DNA from: Actinomycetota bacterium
Lineage (GTDB): Bacteria; Actinomycetota; Actinomycetes; Nanopelagicales; Nanopelagicaceae
Length of the DNA: 46,184 nucleotides
Direction of reading: 5' to 3'
Assembly (NCBI GenBank): GCA_016870835.1
Contig: VGAG01000006.1
Location: 1-46,184 of the forward strand
How positions within the stretch are numbered: the stretch's first letter is position 1; each line of letters begins with the position of its first letter. The position numbers and the translations under genes are program-made. Of the stretch, positions 4,049 through 46,120 are shown piece by piece. Under the pieces are notes generated by a model that had not been told where the DNA came from, did no database searches, and saw only the letters and a list, made by a program, of their open reading frames with translations.

Positions 4049-5773
4049 ATGTTGCGGATGTCGACGCTTTTTTTGCGCACGTTGCGTGATGATCCATCTG
4101 ATGCCGCTGTCGCAAGTCACAAGTTATTAGTCCGCGCCGGATATATAAGGCCAATTGCTGCCGGAATTTTCTCCTGGTTACCACTTGGCGTAAATGTGCT
4201 GCGCAAAGTTGAGCGGGTAATAAGAGAAGAGATGGATAAGGCGGGCTTTCAAGAAGTTCACTTCCCAGCTCTACTTCCAAAAGATCCATATGAGAAGACA
4301 AATCGTTGGGAAGATTATGGCCCAGCCCTATTTCGACTTCAGGATCGAAAGGGAAGTGATTATCTACTTGGGCCTACCCATGAAGAGATGTTTACTCTTA
4401 TGGTTAAGGGCGAATATTCCTCTTATAAAGATCTGCCTTTAAGTATCTATCAAATTCAGACTAAGTATCGTGATGAAGCGCGCCCCAGAAGCGGAATCAT
4501 CCGCGGCCGTGAATTTGTTATGAAAGATTCATACTCCTTTGATCTTGATGATGCTGGACTTGAAGTTTCTTATGGCAAGCACCGTGATGCATATATATCT
4601 ACCTTTGATCGCCTTGGTTTGAAATACAACATTGTCTCGGCGATGTCGGGCGCTATGGGCGGTTCAAAATCTGAAGAATTCTTAGCTCCTTGCTCAACTG
4701 GTGAAGATACTTATGTACTCTGTAAGAAGTGTGGCTATGCCGTAAATGTTGAAGCAATGAGTACAAAGGTTTCCGCTGGCGAAACAACAGAACATCCCCC
4801 GATTGAAGTTCTAGATACTCCTAATACCCCAACAATCGAGAGCCTAGTTGAGGTAATGAATAAGAAATACAGCGCCAATATTGATGCAAGTAAGACGCTA
4901 AAGAATGTACTTCTAATCGCAGATGGCAACCCCATCTCAGTTCTAGTACCCGGAGATCGCGAAGTTGACTTGAAGCGACTTGAGGCAAATTTGATTGGCG
5001 TCAAAGAGTTGCGATTGTTTGATGATGAGGACTTTGCAAAACGTAAAGACTTTGTAAAAGGTTACGTTGGACCACAAGATGCCAAGCGTCTCGGTGTAAA
5101 ACTCTATGCTGATCCGAGAATCACTATAGGTTCAAGTTGGATCACCGGTGCGAATGTAAGAGATAAGCATGCGCGAAATGTCGTGCATGGAAGAGATTTT
5201 CAGGTTGATGGATTTGTTGAAGCTGCGGAGGTACGTGAAGGTGATGCATGTCCGAAGTGCGATACTCCGGTAATAATTGATCGAGCAATTGAAATCGGTC
5301 ATATCTTCCAACTCGGTAGGAAATATGCCGAAGCGCTTGAATTAACGGTCCTTGATAGCGAAGGTAAGTCGCGCGTTGTAACTATGGGCTCCTACGGCAT
5401 CGGAGTAACTCGTGCAGTCGCTGCAATTGCTGAACAGACTTACGATGAAATCGGACTTGTATGGCCAGCTGAAATAGCGCCTGCGAAAGTTCATATCGTT
5501 GCCACTGGTAAGGATGATCTGCCGTTCACAACCGCCGAAAAGGTAGCGCTAGAACTTGAAGGCAAAGGCATCGAAGTAATGCTCGATGATCGCAGAGAGG
5601 CAAGCCCTGGCGTTAAGTTTAAAGATGCTGAATTAATCGGTAATCCGATTATCTTGATTTTTGGTAAGTCTCTCGCAGATGGAAAAGTGGAACTTCGAAT
5701 TCGTAAGTCAGGGGAGAAGAGCGAAGTTGCACTTGCTGAAGTAGTTTCTAAAGTAGCTGCGCTTCTTAACTAG
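4049..5773 (+). CDS. proS: Prolyl-tRNA synthetase, bacterial type
   Basis: Class II synthetase that charges tRNA-Pro. Motif 2 is clear (YRDEARPRSG then IIRGREF, about residues 140-157) and motif 3 contains MGSYGIGVTR near residue 450, followed by the C-terminal anticodon-binding domain. The 574-residue length and the insertion between motifs 2 and 3 indicate the bacterial form with an editing domain. ATG codons at 4049 and 4058 both fit; I chose 4049 because of the TAGGCT hexamer 7 nt upstream. The stop codon shares one base with the GTG start of the permease. Confidence 0.96.
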   Translation: MLRMSTLFLRTLRDDPSDAAVASHKLLVRAGYIRPIAAGIFSWLPLGVNVLRKVERVIREEMDKAGFQEVHFPALLPKDPYEKTNRWEDYGPALFRLQDRKGSDYLLGPTHEEMFTLMVKGEYSSYKDLPLSIYQIQTKYRDEARPRSGIIRGREFVMKDSYSFDLDDAGLEVSYGKHRDAYISTFDRLGLKYNIVSAMSGAMGGSKSEEFLAPCSTGEDTYVLCKKCGYAVNVEAMSTKVSAGETTEHPPIEVLDTPNTPTIESLVEVMNKKYSANIDASKTLKNVLLIADGNPISVLVPGDREVDLKRLEANLIGVKELRLFDDEDFAKRKDFVKGYVGPQDAKRLGVKLYADPRITIGSSWITGANVRDKHARNVVHGRDFQVDGFVEAAEVREGDACPKCDTPVIIDRAIEIGHIFQLGRKYAEALELTVLDSEGKSRVVTMGSYGIGVTRAVAAIAEQTYDEIGLVWPAEIAPAKVHIVATGKDDLPFTTAEKVALELEGKGIEVMLDDRREASPGVKFKDAELIGNPIILIFGKSLADGKVELRIRKSGEKSEVALAEVVSKVAALLN

Positions 5774-13474: not shown

Positions 13475-13561
13475 CCACAGGCCGGACGACTGGTCCTCGG
13501 TGGTGGCCTACGGATGATTGCCGTGGGCTTCGATCGAAGATCCATTCTCTGGTAGCTGTGG
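13475..13561 (+). ncRNA. Actino-pnp-like RNA element upstream of pnp
   Basis: The rpsO-pnp spacer contains a region closed by CCACAG (13475-13480) and CTGTGG (13556-13561), with internal complementary pieces such as GGCC at 13480-13483 against GGCC at 13505-13508 and the TTCGATCGAA palindrome near 13529. The Actino-pnp motif is a described structured RNA found 5' of pnp in actinobacteria, presumably controlling PNPase by processing. Assignment is from position and pairing; no covariance search was run. Confidence 0.65.
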
Positions 13562-13586: not shown

Positions 13587-15779
13587 ATGGAGGGTCAAGA
13601 CGTTAGTTATGCCGTTGCAAAAATAGACAACGGTAAATTTGGAAAACGAGAGATTCGTTTCGAAACCGGGCGCTTAGCGCGCCAGGCTGCGGGAACCGCA
13701 GTCGTTTATTTAGATGATGAGACGATGCTGCTTTCAGCAACAACTGCATCTAAAAATGCAAAAGATCAATTTGATTTCTTCCCACTCACAGTAGATGTGG
13801 AAGAGCGTATGTATTCGGTGGGTCGAATCCCCGGATCATTCTTCCGTCGTGAAGGTCGCCCATCAGAGGATGCGATTCTTACCTGTCGTTTGATCGATCG
13901 CCCACTTCGCCCATCCTTTATTAAAGGATTGCGTAACGAAGTACAGATCGTTGTAACCGTTATGGCTTTGAATCCCGATCATATGTATGACGTGATCGCT
14001 ATCAACGCAGCATCGATGTCCACTCAACTTGCTGGACTTCCTTTCTCAGGACCAATCGGCGGAGTTCGCGTTGCACTTATCGATGGCCAATGGGTTGCTT
14101 TCCCAAATCACAGTGAATTAGAGCGCGCCGTATTCGATATGGTCGTAGCTGGTCGAATCGCTGGTGATGATGTTGCAATCATGATGGTTGAAGCTGAGGC
14201 AACAACAAAGACCATCTCGCTTATCCAAGGTGGAGCAGGCGCACCAACTGAAGAGATTGTTGGAGCTGGTCTTGAAGCCTCAAAGCCATTCATCCGCATT
14301 CTCTGCGAAGCTCAAATCGAGCTGGCAAAGGTCGCCGCAAAACCAACTGCAGAATTCCCAGTCTTCTTGGATTATCAAGATGATGCATATGCCGCTGTTG
14401 AGAAGGCCGCAAAGGATCGTTTTGCTAAAGCGCTTACGATTGCTGGAAAGCAAGAGCGCGAAACTGAACTTGATGCAATCTCAGCTGAAGTCAAAGAGAA
14501 GCTTGCTCCTGATTTTGAAGGACGCGAGAAGGAAATCTCTGCTGCTCTTCGCTCAGTCACAAAGAAGTTGGTCCGCCAACGCGTACTTCGTGACAAGATC
14601 CGAATTGATGGCCGCGGTCTTAAAGATATCCGGCCACTAACTGCAGAAGTAGAAGTGATTCCTCGAGTACATGGTTCGGCGCTCTTTGAACGCGGAGAGA
14701 CCCAAATCCTCGGTGTAACAACGCTAAATATGCTCAAGATGGAGCAACAGCTAGATACTTTGAACCCTGAAGATCACAAGCGTTACATGCATAACTACAA
14801 CTTCCCGCCTTACTCAACTGGTGAGACTGGTCGAGTTGGCTCGCCAAAGCGCCGCGAAATCGGTCATGGCGCACTTGCAGAACGCGCACTTCTTCCAGTT
14901 CTTCCAACTCGCGAAGAGTTTCCTTATGCAATCCGCCAAGTATCTGAAGCGCTCGGCTCAAATGGATCTACCTCAATGGGATCTGTCTGCGCATCCACGC
15001 TTTCACTACTTAACGCTGGTGTGCCTCTGAAGGCACCTGTCGCAGGTATTGCAATGGGTCTTATCTCTGATGATGTTGATGGCAAAGTTGAATATGTCGC
15101 ACTTACTGACATTCTCGGCGCCGAAGATGCATTCGGAGATATGGATTTCAAGGTAGCTGGCACAAAGGATTTTGTTACCGCGCTACAGCTCGATACGAAA
15201 CTTGATGGAATTCCAGCAAGCGTTCTTGCCGCAGCGTTACTACAAGCCAAAGAGGCTCGCTTAGCAATCCTCAACGTTATGAATGAGGCGATTGATCGTC
15301 CAGATGATATGAATCCACTGGCTCCACGGATCATCAGCATCAAGATTCCAGTCGATCAAATCGGCGCTGTTATCGGCCCTAAGGGTAAGGTCATCAACCA
15401 GATTCAAGAAGAGACTGGCGCTGAGATCACTATCGAAGATGATGGAACGATTTATATCGGTGCGACAAATGGAACTGCAGCTGATGCTGCCAAGGCCCAA
15501 GTCATCGCAATCGCAGATCCAAAGCTTCCTGAAGTTGGTGAGCGTTACAACGGAACTGTTGTGAAGCTTGCAGCTTTCGGTGCTTTCGTAAATCTTCTAC
15601 CCGGGAAAGATGGCCTGCTGCACATCTCACAGATCCGCAAGATGCATGGTGGAAAGCGGATTGAGAATCTAGAGGATGTAATGAAGGTCGGAGATAAGGT
15701 CCATGTTGAGATCGGTGAAATCGATCCAAAGGGCAAGCTCTCACTAGTTCCAGTTCTTGAAGAGACAGCAAGCGAATAA
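13587..15779 (+). CDS. pnp: Polyribonucleotide nucleotidyltransferase (PNPase)
   Basis: 3'-5' phosphorolytic exoribonuclease; in actinobacteria also a guanosine pentaphosphate-linked enzyme. Two RNase PH domains are visible (first from residue 20, second from about 330 with [13 protein letters not shown]), then a KH domain near 585-645 ([17 protein letters not shown]) and a C-terminal S1 domain ([19 protein letters not shown], about 650-725). Length 730. The ATG has AGGAG 6 nt upstream. Codon choice looks more uniform than in neighbouring genes, as in infB and nrdJ, which suggests high expression (impression, not computed). Confidence 0.97.
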
Positions 15780-19837: not shown

Positions 19838-19843
19838 TAGCCT
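19838..19843 (+). promoter_or_regulatory. -10 element of dapA, leaderless geometry
   Basis: TAGCCT, 6 nt (TGGCGC), ATG at 19850; it begins directly after the thyX stop codon. The identical hexamer and spacing occur at alanine dehydrogenase and at the 62-residue gene. Confidence 0.6.
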
Positions 19844-38742: not shown

Positions 38743-41550
38743 ATGTCGGACACCGTCATCAATCGCCCAGGCGCCAAGAACAAGCTTGGAAAAGGCCTAA
38801 AAGTAGAGCGAATCTTCAGCACCCAAGGTGCGCACCCATACGATCAAGTCACATGGGAGCGTCGCGATGTAGTGCAGACAAATTGGAAGACTGGCGAAAC
38901 AGTCTTTGAACAGAAGGGCGTTGAGTTCCCAGATTTCTGGTCGGTAAATGCCTCCACCATCGTCACCACAAAATATTTCCGCGGCGCTGTTGGTCATGAG
39001 AATCGTGAATGGTCGCTAAAGCAGGTTATTGACCGCGTCGTTCTCACATATACAAAAGCTGGCAAAGAACATGGTTATTTTGCAACCCCAGAAGATGCCG
39101 AAATCTTTGAACATGAATTGACTTACATGTTGCTCCACCAGGTCTTCTCATTTAACTCACCTGTCTGGTTTAACGTTGGAACTACAGCCCCACAACAGGT
39201 CTCAGCCTGCTTCATCCTCTCTGTCGATGACACCATGGATTCAATCCTTAACTGGTATCGCGAAGAGGGCATGATCTTCAAAGGCGGCTCTGGCGCAGGT
39301 CTAAACCTCTCCCGAATCCGCTCCTCAAAAGAGCTCCTCCGCTCCGGTGGCACAGCCTCTGGCCCAGTCTCATTTATGCGCGGCGCAGATGCATCTGCCG
39401 GCACCATCAAGTCTGGTGGCGCTACCCGCAGGGCGGCAAAGATGGTTGTTCTAGATGTTGATCATCCAGATGTCGAAGAGTTCATCGACACAAAGGTTCG
39501 TGAAGAAGAGAAGATCCGCGTCCTTCGCGATGCGGGCTTTGATATGGATCTCGGTGGAAAAGATGTCATCTCGGTCCAATACCAAAATGCAAATAACTCA
39601 GTTCGAGTTAACGATGAATTTATGCGCGCATATGAGAGCGGTTTGAAGTTTGGTCTACTCGCTCGTTCTACCGGTGAGGTAATTGAAGAGATTGATGCAA
39701 AGTCGCTCTTCCGCAAAATGGCAGAAGCTGCTTGGGCATGCGCCGACCCAGGAATTCAATACGACACCACAATTAATGATTGGCACACAAACCCAGAAAC
39801 TGGTCGAATCAATGCTTCGAACCCATGCTCTGAGTACATGTCACTCGATAACTCATCTTGCAACCTTGCATCTTTAAATCTAATGAAGTTCTTAAAGAGC
39901 GATGGTTCATTTGATGCAAAGAACTTTGTTAAATCAGTTGAGTTGATTATCACCGCAATGGATATCTCAATCTGCTTCGCTGATTTCCCAACTGAAGCGA
40001 TTGGCGTAACAACTCGCGCATATCGCCAACTAGGAATTGGTTACGCAAACCTTGGAGCGCTCCTTATGGCCTCCGGTCTTGCATACGACTCAGAAGGTGG
40101 CCGCGCACTAGCCGGCGCAATCACCTCACTAATGACAGGTACTTCATATCGCCGCTCTGCAGAAATCGCTGGAATCGTTGGCGCATATGATGGTTATGCA
40201 AGAAATGCCTCTGCGCACACTCGCGTTATGAAGAAGCACCAAGCCGCATCACTTTCAGCTAAAGCGGTCTCAACTCTTGATCGCGATGTCTGGAGCGAGG
40301 CAAACAAGCAATGGGATTCCTGCCTTGCCATCGGCGATAAGAATGGCTGGCGTAACGCCCAAGCCTCAGTTCTTGCCCCAACTGGAACTATCGGCTTGAT
40401 GATGGATTGCGATACAACAGGTATCGAACCTGACTTCTCGCTCGTTAAGTTTAAGAAGTTGGTCGGTGGCGGCTCAATGCAGATCGTCAATCAGACCGTC
40501 CCACAAGCCCTCCGTAAGTTGGGCTATACCGAAGAGACAATTGAAGCAATCGTCGAGTACATCACCGCTAATGGCCATGTTGTAGATGCCCCTGGTTTAA
40601 AGCCAGAGCACTATGACGTATTTGATTGCGCACTTGGCGCTCGCTCGATCGCTCCTATGGGCCATGTTCGAATGATGGCTGCCTGCCAACCATTCCTCTC
40701 TGGCGCGATCTCAAAGACAGTAAACCTTCCTGAGAATGCAACTATCGAAGAGGTTGAAGAGGTTTATTACGAAGGTTGGAAGCTTGGGCTAAAAGCGATT
40801 GCGATTTATCGCGATAACTGCAAAGTCGGACAACCACTTTCGGATGCAAAAGCTACAAAGAAGGAAGATAGCGCAGAAGCGGCAGCCCCATCTCCTGCTA
40901 CTCGCAAGCGCCTTCCAAAGTCACGCCCATCACGCACCACATCATTTGCTGTCGGTGGGGCTGAGGGTTATATGACCGCAGGAACTTATGAAGATGGCCA
41001 ACTTGGTGAGATCTTCTTAAAACTTGGAAAGCAAGGTTCAACTCTTGCTGGAGTCATGGATGCATTCTCAATCGCAGTCTCAATCGGACTTCAATACGGA
41101 GTACCACTTGAGACCTATGTACAGAAGTTCACCAACTCCCGCTTCGAGCCAGCTGGTATGACTGATGATCCAGATATCCGCATGGCCCAATCCATGATGG
41201 ATTACATCTTCCGTCGCCTCGCTCTTGATTATCTACCTGGCGATATCCGCTCTGCTTACGGCATCTACACCGCAACTGAGCGCGCAACCGCCGTTGAAAC
41301 TGGCGAATACGCAACAGCTGGTGAGGTTGCTACACCTTCTGTCGAGCCAGTAATTGAGATGAAGGCAAAGCCAGTAGAGGTAAAGATCGAAACCGCTCCA
41401 ACAAATATCGGTTCATCAACTGAGTTGTTAGAGAAGATTGCGGGCATAAAGTCTGATGCGCCACTCTGTATTACTTGCGGAGTAAAGATGCGCGCATCTG
41501 GAGCTTGCTATGTCTGTGAAGGTTGCGGTTCAACTTCCGGTTGCAGCTAA
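38743..41550 (+). CDS. nrdJ: Vitamin B12-dependent (class II) ribonucleotide reductase
   Basis: Makes deoxyribonucleotides using an adenosylcobalamin-derived thiyl radical, with or without oxygen. Signatures: HQVFSFNSPVWFNVG and QVSACFILSVDDTMDS near residues 130-165, GGSGAGLNLSRIRS near 180, NPCSEYMSLDNSSCNLASLNL near 360-380, APTGTIGLMMDCDTTGIEPDFSL near 545, and a Cys-rich C-terminus (CITCG, CYVCEGCGSTSGC) that carries the redox-active thiols. Length 935 is typical of the long actinobacterial form. It has the most polished codon use in the window by eye, suggesting strong expression. Confidence 0.97.
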   Translation: MSDTVINRPGAKNKLGKGLKVERIFSTQGAHPYDQVTWERRDVVQTNWKTGETVFEQKGVEFPDFWSVNASTIVTTKYFRGAVGHENREWSLKQVIDRVVLTYTKAGKEHGYFATPEDAEIFEHELTYMLLHQVFSFNSPVWFNVGTTAPQQVSACFILSVDDTMDSILNWYREEGMIFKGGSGAGLNLSRIRSSKELLRSGGTASGPVSFMRGADASAGTIKSGGATRRAAKMVVLDVDHPDVEEFIDTKVREEEKIRVLRDAGFDMDLGGKDVISVQYQNANNSVRVNDEFMRAYESGLKFGLLARSTGEVIEEIDAKSLFRKMAEAAWACADPGIQYDTTINDWHTNPETGRINASNPCSEYMSLDNSSCNLASLNLMKFLKSDGSFDAKNFVKSVELIITAMDISICFADFPTEAIGVTTRAYRQLGIGYANLGALLMASGLAYDSEGGRALAGAITSLMTGTSYRRSAEIAGIVGAYDGYARNASAHTRVMKKHQAASLSAKAVSTLDRDVWSEANKQWDSCLAIGDKNGWRNAQASVLAPTGTIGLMMDCDTTGIEPDFSLVKFKKLVGGGSMQIVNQTVPQALRKLGYTEETIEAIVEYITANGHVVDAPGLKPEHYDVFDCALGARSIAPMGHVRMMAACQPFLSGAISKTVNLPENATIEEVEEVYYEGWKLGLKAIAIYRDNCKVGQPLSDAKATKKEDSAEAAAPSPATRKRLPKSRPSRTTSFAVGGAEGYMTAGTYEDGQLGEIFLKLGKQGSTLAGVMDAFSIAVSIGLQYGVPLETYVQKFTNSRFEPAGMTDDPDIRMAQSMMDYIFRRLALDYLPGDIRSAYGIYTATERATAVETGEYATAGEVATPSVEPVIEMKAKPVEVKIETAPTNIGSSTELLEKIAGIKSDAPLCITCGVKMRASGACYVCEGCGSTSGCS

Positions 41551-41558
41551 TCGCAACG

Positions 41559-41578
41559 CTAGAGATTTAATTCTCTAG
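41559..41578 (+). terminator. Short hairpin between nrdJ and the 62-residue gene
   Basis: Perfect 7-bp repeat CTAGAGA and TCTCTAG with loop TTTAAT, 8 nt after the nrdJ stop. It has no long T-run and contains the stop codon of the convergent small gene, so a shared bidirectional terminator is possible but unproven. Confidence 0.4.
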
Positions 41579-41763
41579 ACTGCGTATAGATCAAACGGGC
41601 TAGCAGAGTCACGAACAATCTCTGCTGTCGCCAAAGTTGGAACTGCGACTGCGACTTCACTCTCAATAATTTGAGTAGGAGCGGCGATAAATGTTGGGAT
41701 CTCAACAGTTGGGGCTGGTCCCATCATTGAAGCCATTGCCACTGCCATACAACCAACGCACAT
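41575..41763 (-). CDS. Orphan 62-residue protein with N-terminal CxxC
   Basis: A minus-strand frame encodes 62 residues: MCVGCMAVAMASMMGPAP, then a Pro/Val/Ala/Glu-rich, low-charge middle, ending DLYAV. The CVGC pair near the start and a run of Met, Ala and Gly are its only motifs; I recognise no family. Its reality is supported by a TAGCCT hexamer (41770-41775, minus) ending 6 nt before the ATG, the same hexamer and spacing as at dapA and alanine dehydrogenase. It is convergent with nrdJ and divergent from dinG. It could be a membrane-edge or metal-binding peptide, but no function can be assigned. Confidence 0.6.
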   Translation of the reverse strand: MCVGCMAVAMASMMGPAPTVEIPTFIAAPTQIIESEVAVAVPTLATAEIVRDSASPFDLYAV

Positions 41764-41769
41764 AGTTAA

Positions 41770-41775
41770 AGGCTA
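41770..41775 (-). promoter_or_regulatory. -10 element of the 62-residue gene
   Basis: Minus-strand TAGCCT, 6 nt (TTAACT), ATG at 41763. A plus-strand TATACC (41774-41779) that could serve dinG overlaps it. Confidence 0.55.
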
Positions 41776-41812
41776 TACCCAGAGAACGCCAATTGGGGAG
41801 AGGTAAAGGGAA

Positions 41813-43825
41813 TTGAGCCTAGAAAAAGTCCGCTCTGCCCTAAACGCTGCGGTTTGCGCGATTGATGGCTCTCCTCGCGAGGGCCAGATCGCCATGGCCG
41901 AAGCGGTCGCAAACGCTCTCTCAGATCGCCATCACCTACTCGTACAAGCCGGAACTGGAACCGGTAAATCACTTGCTTATCTAGTCCCAGCTCTGGTTCA
42001 TGGCATAAGAGTTCTAGTAGCAACGGCAACGCTTGCCTTACAACGCCAACTTGTAGAGCGCGACCTTCCACGAGTTAAGGAGGCTCTTGAAAGAGAGTTG
42101 GGTCGAGAGATCACATTTGCGGTTTATAAGGGCGTAGGTAATTACCTCTGTTTAGAGAAAATGAATGCAGATGAGACCAATGCCGATGCCGAAGTTCTAG
42201 TTGATGTTTCAACGCTTGAAAAGGATGCTCGCCGGCTCCGTGAGTGGGCCGAAAAACCAGGAGTTTCGGGGGATCGCGATGATGCCCCAGAAGTTGATCG
42301 CCGAGTCTGGCTTGCAAATTCAACATCTGGGCGCGAATGTGTTGGCGCCGATGAGTGTCGATTTGGAAGTGAGTGCTTCGCCGTAAATGCGAAAGCTAAA
42401 GCCCAGACCGCCGACATTGTCGTTACAAATCACACCCTTCTAGCAATTGAAATTGTTGATTCCCACCCAATCCTTCCTGAGCGAGATGCGATAGTTCTAG
42501 ATGAAGCGCATGAGTTTATGGACCGCACCACCCAAGCTGTAACTGAAGAGTTAACCGCAGGGCGAATTTCGCGCGCTGCTGCCATGACCAAAAAACATAT
42601 GCCCGGAAAACTTGCCAACGCTTTTGAAAAAGCTGCTACCGGTTTTTCCGATGCCCTAGCTGATTACAGTGAGGATTACCGAACTCGAAGCGAAGAGCAA
42701 CGAAGACTTGAGGAGCTACCGGATCAACTCGTTGCTCCAATTCGAAAAGTGAAAGAGGCGGCCGAGGCAGTAATCGGCGCTATAAATGCAGATAGCGAAA
42801 TCATTGACCCAGATTCAATCGCCGAGCGCGCACGGGTAAAAGGCGCGGTAAATGAGGTAAAAACAACCACCCAAAAGTTGCTTCGCATGAGCGAGGGTTC
42901 GGTTCTCTGGTTTGAGCCTAATTTCTCTACGCTTTATCTCGCGCCACTTGATGTCTCATCCGTTTTGCGTGAGAACTTATTTAAGAAATCTCCAGTAATC
43001 GCAACGAGCGCGACGTTATCGGTGGGCAAGAGTTTTGATCCAATCGCGCGCAACTTGGGCATTAGCGATAACTCAAGTGACGATGAAGGCGAAGCAGATG
43101 AAAAAGAGGGAACTGGAATTGATCCTTCAAATGTGAAGATGCTCGATGTCGGCTCACCATTTGATTTCGCTTCACAAGGGATGCTTTACCTGCCGCGCCA
43201 CTTACCCGAGCCCGGTCGCGATGGACCGAGCGTCGAGGCTCTAGTTGAGTTGGGCGAGTTGATCGATGCCGCAGGCGGAAGAACCTTGGCGCTCTTCTCT
43301 TCTTGGCGCGGAGTTGAGATGGCAGATGATCACTTAAGAAGAGTCTTAGCTGAACTTCCAATAAATATCATCACGCAAAAACGGGGCGATAGCGTCGGTT
43401 CTCTTGTTGAGAGATTTGCATCAGATCCAACCTCAATTCTCCTTGGAACCATGAGTCTTTGGCAGGGCGTTGATGTCCCCGGTCCTGCATGCACCCTTGT
43501 CGCAATTGATCGAATTCCGTTTCCGCGCCCCGATGATCCAGTCATGTCTGCCCGCTCCGCCCAAGCTGATCAATCCGGTGGTTCGGGTTTTATGCAGGTC
43601 TCACTACCAAGAGCTGCGCTCTTACTTGCGCAGGGAACTGGAAGGCTGATCCGCTCGGTAGAAGATCGGGGAGTAGTTGCAATTCTCGATTCAAGAATTG
43701 TTAATAAGCGCTATGGCTCAGTCCTACTAAATTCAATGCCGCCGCTATGGCGAACTAGCGAGAGCGCGGTCGTTAAAGATTCGCTAAAGCGACTTAACCT
43801 GCAATATCAAGAAGACGGGCGCTAA
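41813..43825 (+). CDS. dinG: ATP-dependent DNA helicase, DinG/XPD family
   Basis: Superfamily 2 5'-3' helicase that clears R-loops, G-quadruplexes and similar obstacles. Walker A QAGTGTGKS is at residues 45-53, the DEAH box begins at D230 (VLDEAHEF), and four cysteines between them (one in NYLCLEK near 113; three in ECVGADECRFGSECF near 180-193) match the Fe-S cluster of the family. C-terminal motifs include GTMSLWQGVDVPG and QGTGRLIRS. Length 670. The start is TTG with GGAGAGG 9 nt upstream. No SOS box was seen near it, unlike E. coli dinG. The 3' end overlaps the convergent Nudix gene by 32 nt. Confidence 0.92.
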   Translation: MSLEKVRSALNAAVCAIDGSPREGQIAMAEAVANALSDRHHLLVQAGTGTGKSLAYLVPALVHGIRVLVATATLALQRQLVERDLPRVKEALERELGREITFAVYKGVGNYLCLEKMNADETNADAEVLVDVSTLEKDARRLREWAEKPGVSGDRDDAPEVDRRVWLANSTSGRECVGADECRFGSECFAVNAKAKAQTADIVVTNHTLLAIEIVDSHPILPERDAIVLDEAHEFMDRTTQAVTEELTAGRISRAAAMTKKHMPGKLANAFEKAATGFSDALADYSEDYRTRSEEQRRLEELPDQLVAPIRKVKEAAEAVIGAINADSEIIDPDSIAERARVKGAVNEVKTTTQKLLRMSEGSVLWFEPNFSTLYLAPLDVSSVLRENLFKKSPVIATSATLSVGKSFDPIARNLGISDNSSDDEGEADEKEGTGIDPSNVKMLDVGSPFDFASQGMLYLPRHLPEPGRDGPSVEALVELGELIDAAGGRTLALFSSWRGVEMADDHLRRVLAELPINIITQKRGDSVGSLVERFASDPTSILLGTMSLWQGVDVPGPACTLVAIDRIPFPRPDDPVMSARSAQADQSGGSGFMQVSLPRAALLLAQGTGRLIRSVEDRGVVAILDSRIVNKRYGSVLLNSMPPLWRTSESAVVKDSLKRLNLQYQEDGR

Positions 43826-45130: not shown

Positions 45131-46120
45131 ATGACAACAGTTACCTCACCTAGTGATCTTCTTGCTGCAGTCCCATTTTTAATCGGATACCAACCTAGCG
45201 ACGCCATCGTCTTAATGGCTTTAAACGATGAGTCGATAACGATGGCGATCCGAGTCGACTTTCCACAGTCGATCTCCGATGACGAAGCGAGCGCGCTTGC
45301 TAAAAAATTCGAGGGTAGCGATGGCGCGCTCCTTGTCTTCTACATCCCAGACTCCTGCGATGATGCTGAATTAGTTATAAGGCCCCTTAGCGAAGCTCTA
45401 GTTGCCCAGGGCATCCCACTTCGCGAATCAATAATCATCGTAAGAGATCGTTGGCGCTCACTCATTTGTAGTGATGAGAGTTGTTGTCCAATTGAAGGCT
45501 CGCCGCTTCAAGAGCTATGTGATTCAAGGATTACTGCTGAGGAGATATCGCGCGGAAAGCCGCTTCCTTTCCGCGATCTCGCTGAAATGACCCGCTCGCT
45601 AAGTCCACGCATTGACGATGTGATCGTAGAGATGATGGGCCGGATCCCAGCAATTGATTATGACAATGATCCAACTAGCCAACAGCGTGATGGCGCAAAC
45701 TCAATCCTTGATTTTCTCCATGATTTCCAAGTTGATCGGATCTGTCGTGACAAACGACTTGTTGCAACAGTTTTAGTAAGACTTAAAGATCTACAGGTCC
45801 GTGATTTCGCTTTAGGCAGTATGGACCAAGAAAGCGATCTCTATTTTGATGCCTGGCGCTGGTTGTTAACAAAAGCCCCAACCGGCTACATAGCCGCCCC
45901 CGCGACTTTGCTTGCAGTCGCTGCGTATGAAAGGGGAGATGGCGCTCTTGCAAATGTGGCGTTAAAAAGGGCCAAGGATGATCAACCTAACTACTCGCTG
46001 ATTGACCTACTTGAACAACTCTTCCGCAGCGGTAAACCACCCAGCATTTTCCAAGAGTTACGCGCAGAGCTTCACCCAAAGGTTTGCGCTGCGCTCTTCT
46101 CCGGTAGCCTTTCGGCGTGA
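45131..46120 (+). CDS. DUF4192 family protein
   Basis: A 329-residue protein of the actinobacterial DUF4192 family, recognised from its N-terminus (SPSDLLAAVPFLIGYQPSDAIVLMAL) and a C-terminal WRWLLTKAPTGYIAAPATLLAVAAYERGDGALANVAL segment resembling the family end. No catalytic motif or membrane span is evident, and its function is unknown. It ends in a GTGA overlap with alanine dehydrogenase, but that gene has its own -10 inside this frame, so co-transcription is not required. Confidence 0.85.
   Translation: MTTVTSPSDLLAAVPFLIGYQPSDAIVLMALNDESITMAIRVDFPQSISDDEASALAKKFEGSDGALLVFYIPDSCDDAELVIRPLSEALVAQGIPLRESIIIVRDRWRSLICSDESCCPIEGSPLQELCDSRITAEEISRGKPLPFRDLAEMTRSLSPRIDDVIVEMMGRIPAIDYDNDPTSQQRDGANSILDFLHDFQVDRICRDKRLVATVLVRLKDLQVRDFALGSMDQESDLYFDAWRWLLTKAPTGYIAAPATLLAVAAYERGDGALANVALKRAKDDQPNYSLIDLLEQLFRSGKPPSIFQELRAELHPKVCAALFSGSLSA
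46105..46110 (+). promoter_or_regulatory. -10 element of alanine dehydrogenase, leaderless geometry
   Basis: TAGCCT, 6 nt (TTCGGC), GTG at 46117, located inside the end of the DUF4192 gene. Confidence 0.55.

Follow-up and report, generated by a model that had tools for sequence, protein, structure and literature searches.

CxxC proteins of the NrdH-type redoxin and thioredoxin kinds are reductants of ribonucleotide reductases. The small gene described here resembles them insofar as it encodes a small protein with a CxxC motif and adjoins a ribonucleotide reductase gene; it differs in that the CxxC lies at residues 2-5 of a protein with no room for a thioredoxin fold, and in that the gene is rare. 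For the actinobacterial ribonucleotide reductase NrdJd, none of the thioredoxins or glutaredoxins tested served as electron donor (PMC5704485).

Mycobacteria have many leaderless small-protein genes (Shell et al. 2015, PMC4633059). A minority of these small ORFs lie on transcripts separate from other genes and some are enriched in cysteine, the cysteine-enriched ones being uORFs coupled to downstream genes (PMC4633059). Judged from sequence alone, the gene described here is another instance of such leaderless small-protein genes, in a freshwater lineage: like the mycobacterial genes, it has its start codon where a leaderless mRNA would begin. It differs from the mycobacterial uORFs in that it is stand-alone, convergent with nrdJ, and has no gene downstream on its strand. 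A literature search for leaderless expression in the freshwater lineage found no paper. The features of the locus within the window (the whole stretch of 46,184 nucleotides analysed) are as follows.

38743 to 41550, plus strand: nrdJ, class II ribonucleotide reductase (Pfam PF02867, PF08471, PF12637), convergent neighbour
41560 to 41579: perfect inverted repeat CTAGAGA-TTTAAT-TCTCTAG with 7-bp arms, over the small-gene stop, where nrdJ and the small gene converge
41575 to 41763, minus strand: small-protein gene, 62 aa, translation beginning MCVGCMAVAMASMMG...
41770 to 41775, minus strand: TAGCCT, putative leaderless-type -10 box, with a spacer of 6 to the ATG
41774 to 41779, plus strand: TATACC, proposed dinG -10, a weak candidate that is not TANNNT (it lacks the T at position 6)
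41793 to 41798, plus strand: AGAGGT, seemingly a decayed form of the TAAGGT box that relatives have at dinG, position read by eye
41813 to 43825, plus strand: dinG-type helicase (Pfam PF13307, PF00270), divergent neighbour, TTG start

The 62-residue frame and its leaderless-type promoter

The first-pass annotation, made from the letters and open reading frames of this DNA, had described a 62-residue minus-strand frame with the N-terminus MCVGC. The sequence contains exactly this frame, from an ATG at 41763 to a TAG at 41575; the range originally given extended to 41812, and 49 bp of it is intergenic DNA beyond the frame. The codon score of the frame is 0.235 per codon, at the 61st percentile of real gene pieces (mean 0.217), while the 152 spurious small ORFs of the window average -0.051 and none of them reaches 0.235. 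The chance that a random 262-nt stretch with matching dinucleotide composition contains an ATG frame of at least 58 aa on the minus strand, with TANNNT at a spacer of 6, is 0.18%. We consider the 62-aa frame very probably a real gene.

That this is intergenic DNA left open by chance is very unlikely. Such a reading would fit the short spacing in most relatives that keep nrdJ near dinG, where just 37-184 nt lie between the two genes and hold no such frame, as well as the lack of a match in Pfam, NCBIfam or PDB and the failure of the C-terminal part of the window protein to be conserved with its relatives. Against it stand the codon usage, which is like that of real genes, the TANNNT leaderless box at the right spacing, and the existence of relatives that are under purifying selection and found at the same locus.

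The gene was also said to carry a TAGCCT box at the spacing seen at dapA and ald, and this is what we find: TAGCCT, six nucleotides and a start codon occur here, at 19838 (putative dapA, ATG 19850) and at 46105 (putative ald, GTG 46117), the names dapA and ald being putative assignments from reading of the sequence and of gene order in a related genome, G003. Across the 41 gene starts of the window, TANNNT stands at a spacer of 6 in six cases against 0.22 expected, an enrichment of about 27-fold, and is near zero at most other spacers, so that TANNNT-N6-start can be regarded as the window's leaderless promoter signature. In this lineage the signature is marked enough to be of use in calling starts and small genes. 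At the small gene, the -10 box lies at a distance that fits transcription starting at the ATG, with no Shine-Dalgarno leader, and its mRNA probably begins at the start codon, i.e., is leaderless.

Relatives of the small protein and their distribution

The protein had been called an orphan, and BLAST-type searches of 100 and 296 genomes with the window protein did indeed find no true homologue. At the DNA level, a search with the entire intergenic region returned chance pieces only, except for an N-terminus in G021 that later proved real. When a DNA pattern composed of the box and MCxxCMA was run over 296 genomes of the family, there were exactly three matches, the window, G021 and G003, and none with the reversed control. 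A single-protein search with the G003 protein then found G021, G195 and a fragment at a contig end in G014. G003 and G021 belong to the genus of the window and G195 to another genus of the family; the N-terminus was partly built into the DNA search pattern, whereas G195 was found without that pattern, through the G003 protein. A profile of the four intact proteins placed members in five of the 296 family genomes (the window, G003, G021, G195 and the G014 fragment), with no further convincing member among them; in 227 class-level genomes it gave one weak match, inside a 427-aa frame, which we take as chance. The protein is thus not an orphan. The accompanying statement that it has no recognisable family stands for Pfam, NCBIfam and PDB, which together with PHROGs returned nothing convincing, but not for the family genomes, where sequence relatives exist.

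Several candidates were set aside. Matches of the small protein to phrog_2329 (E 0.015) and DUF1823 (E 0.11) were taken as chance, and pattern matches in G193 and G027 were rejected as 7-codon frames. Searches of viral contigs, phages, plasmids and Rfam for the small gene gave nothing convincing. A protein in G192 beginning MCVGCAAVYAAVAASS has a similar N-terminal look, but it is 82 aa long and has a Shine-Dalgarno site, and was not counted as a member; it is encoded at 495-740 of locus L215 (G192:C1), beside polyamine-type transport permease genes.

The window protein has 62 aa and its intact relatives 58-60 aa; the latter begin MC[VI]GCM. Values of dN/dS are 0.10 for G003-G021, 0.24 for G003-G195 and 0.21 for G021-G195, so the relatives are constrained as proteins; this purifying selection is seen among these three, pairs with the window being saturated at synonymous sites. 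The window protein shares with the family the MC[VI]GCM start, a hydrophobic stretch at residues 1-16, a length of 58-62 aa and TANNNT-N6-ATG, which each of the four members whose 5’ end is intact retains (window, G003, G021, G195), and in two of the relatives the gene likewise adjoins nrdJ. It differs in its C-terminal part, which in the relatives is basic and well conserved (KP[TS]AA[EQ]LVRAAFK, KPTAAQLVRAAFKEN...NRAI) and in the window is acidic and does not match. The net charge of the window protein is -5, against +3 to +5 in the other members, and when its residues 17-62 are compared with the other members, 410 of 2000 shuffles score as well. The homology of the window protein therefore rests on about 16 N-terminal residues, the locus, the promoter and the inverted repeat, and the protein is a probable relative of the G003/G021/G195 family that has diverged or had its C-terminal part replaced.

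The inverted repeat at 41560 to 41579 has fold z values of -2.8 (minus strand) and -3.8 (plus strand), and in G003 and G195 a comparable repeat made of different bases spans the stop codon; G021 has none. There is no T run at the window repeat, which could possibly act as a weak two-way terminator or a 3’ hairpin.

The small gene is convergent with nrdJ in the window, G003 and G195. In G014, nrdJ and dinG stand together without it and the small gene lies elsewhere; the copies in G021 and G014 have other positions or sit where a contig stops. There are 29 loci in which nrdJ and dinG are no more than 500 nt apart, and the small gene is present in two of them (window, G195) and absent from 27. 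Loss of the frame from relatives that keep the nrdJ-dinG order, which the first-pass annotation had named as telling against the gene, is thus literally observed, but its codon usage, together with the constraint on the protein seen among relatives, indicates a gene that is real though patchy. Its patchy presence and differing locations suggest that it has been gained, lost or moved often. The nrdJ of G195 shares 95-97% identity with its counterpart in a lineage that lacks the small gene (L075-L077, L080) and 83-84% with those of the window and G003. We therefore rejected contamination from the window's genus as the origin of the G195 copy.

At L193 (G003:C9, about 4864-5235), dinG and most of a nudix gene have apparently been deleted between nrdJ and a PKD-type gene; the small gene is followed there by an apparent nudix C-terminal remnant and then the PKD-type gene. 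No dinG was found in G003 (96% complete) at E<=1e-20. The contigs of L191 (G021:C49) and L192 (G014:C77) both break off inside the small gene or shortly upstream of it, and the two share similar DNA downstream of it, which together suggest a variable or repeated region. The locus very probably holds a real, patchily inherited 62-aa gene, missed by family databases, in a streamlined freshwater actinobacterium.

The promoter of dinG

The minus-strand -10 had been proposed to overlap a plus-strand TATACC suited to dinG, so that the two divergent genes might exclude each other's transcription: polymerase at the -10 of the small gene would exclude use of the TATACC by dinG, and vice versa. The plus-strand hexamer does exist and shares two bases with the TAGCCT box, but its fit as a dinG promoter is weak, since it lacks the final T of TANNNT, and a sigma-70 consensus scan found no site at 41774-41779. 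The shared bases arise because TATA is palindromic, and a two-way match is therefore cheap. In favour of competing promoters, the ancestral TAAGGT box of dinG is degenerate in the window, so that dinG may have come to use a different promoter, and a Shine-Dalgarno site in a dinG 5’ leader of about 27 nt could be provided by GGGGAGAGG.

The relatives argue the other way. In most of them (L061-L080) a strongly conserved TAAGGT box, or another TANNNT, stands 6-7 nt ahead of the dinG start. The dinG box of G195, TAGGGT, lies 7 nt from the dinG ATG and about 100 bp from the box of the small gene, while G003 keeps the small gene and its TANNNT box though dinG is lost, and mutual exclusion is consequently not a conserved property. 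We regard overlapping, mutually exclusive promoters as quite unlikely and do not retain the proposal; exclusion in the window's species alone is possible but unsupported. The promoter of the small gene appears not to be built to compete with dinG. The dinG start or box is shifted in the window (41798-41813) and in L063, L064, L066 and L067.

The N-terminal cysteine pair and candidate functions

The N-terminal CxxC noted at first pass is present, and it is conserved as Met-Cys-x-Gly-Cys-Met (MCxGCM) in all four members whose 5’ end is intact. Residues 1-16 are the most hydrophobic stretch in each of the four and are short for a transmembrane helix. A structure model from the single sequence places a helix at residues 3-11 and leaves the rest unstructured, at poor confidence (pLDDT 68.5, pTM 0.22). 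Our best guess is a peripheral protein with a short N-terminal helix, an exposed cysteine pair and a flexible tail. With Cys as residue 2, the initiator Met would be cleaved off. The first 14-16 residues would fold into a short hydrophobic helix lying on a membrane or against a partner protein and exposing the CxxC pair to thiol or metal chemistry; the Pro/Ala-rich region and the C-terminal part would make up a flexible, fast-evolving tail.

Such a pair might serve NrdJ as redox partner: when exposed, the CxxC would reduce, or be reduced by, the cysteine-rich C-terminal tail of the enzyme. The small gene adjoins nrdJ in three genomes, the NrdJ tail has six Cys, and no tested thioredoxin or glutaredoxin donated electrons to the related actinobacterial NrdJd (PMC5704485). 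The two genes are convergent, however, and not co-transcribed, and the G014 copy lies away from nrdJ. No thioredoxin fold with an internal CxxC is predicted for the small protein, which has no Pfam match and is modelled as one short helix. The small gene occurs in just five of 296 family genomes and nrdJ in most loci examined; such rarity argues strongly against any general role as NrdJ reductant, and we hold the redox-partner reading to be highly improbable. Its narrower form, a strain-variable redox mini-protein whose target is the cysteine-rich tail of the class II ribonucleotide reductase encoded next door, is extremely improbable; a CxxC that did serve NrdJ would bear on the question of what reduces the actinobacterial class II ribonucleotide reductases.

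A small cytoplasmic peptide that binds a metal such as Cu(I) through MCxGCM would account for a motif common to all four intact members. It is an unlikely reading, given that no metal genes adjoin the small gene at any locus seen, that the protein has no family match, and that it contains two Cys only.

We favour, as somewhat probable, a genuine, lineage-restricted small gene with its own TANNNT box and a leaderless mRNA, converging on nrdJ and diverging from dinG. That grade is a joint one, covering the gene, the leaderless mRNA, the helix and CxxC mechanism, the accessory role and the lack of cis-regulation of dinG together: the gene would be accessory and non-essential, often gained and lost, and not a cis-regulator of dinG.

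Elsewhere in the window, an Actino-pnp RNA (Rfam RF01688) lies at 13489-13545, just before a 730-aa gene at 13587.
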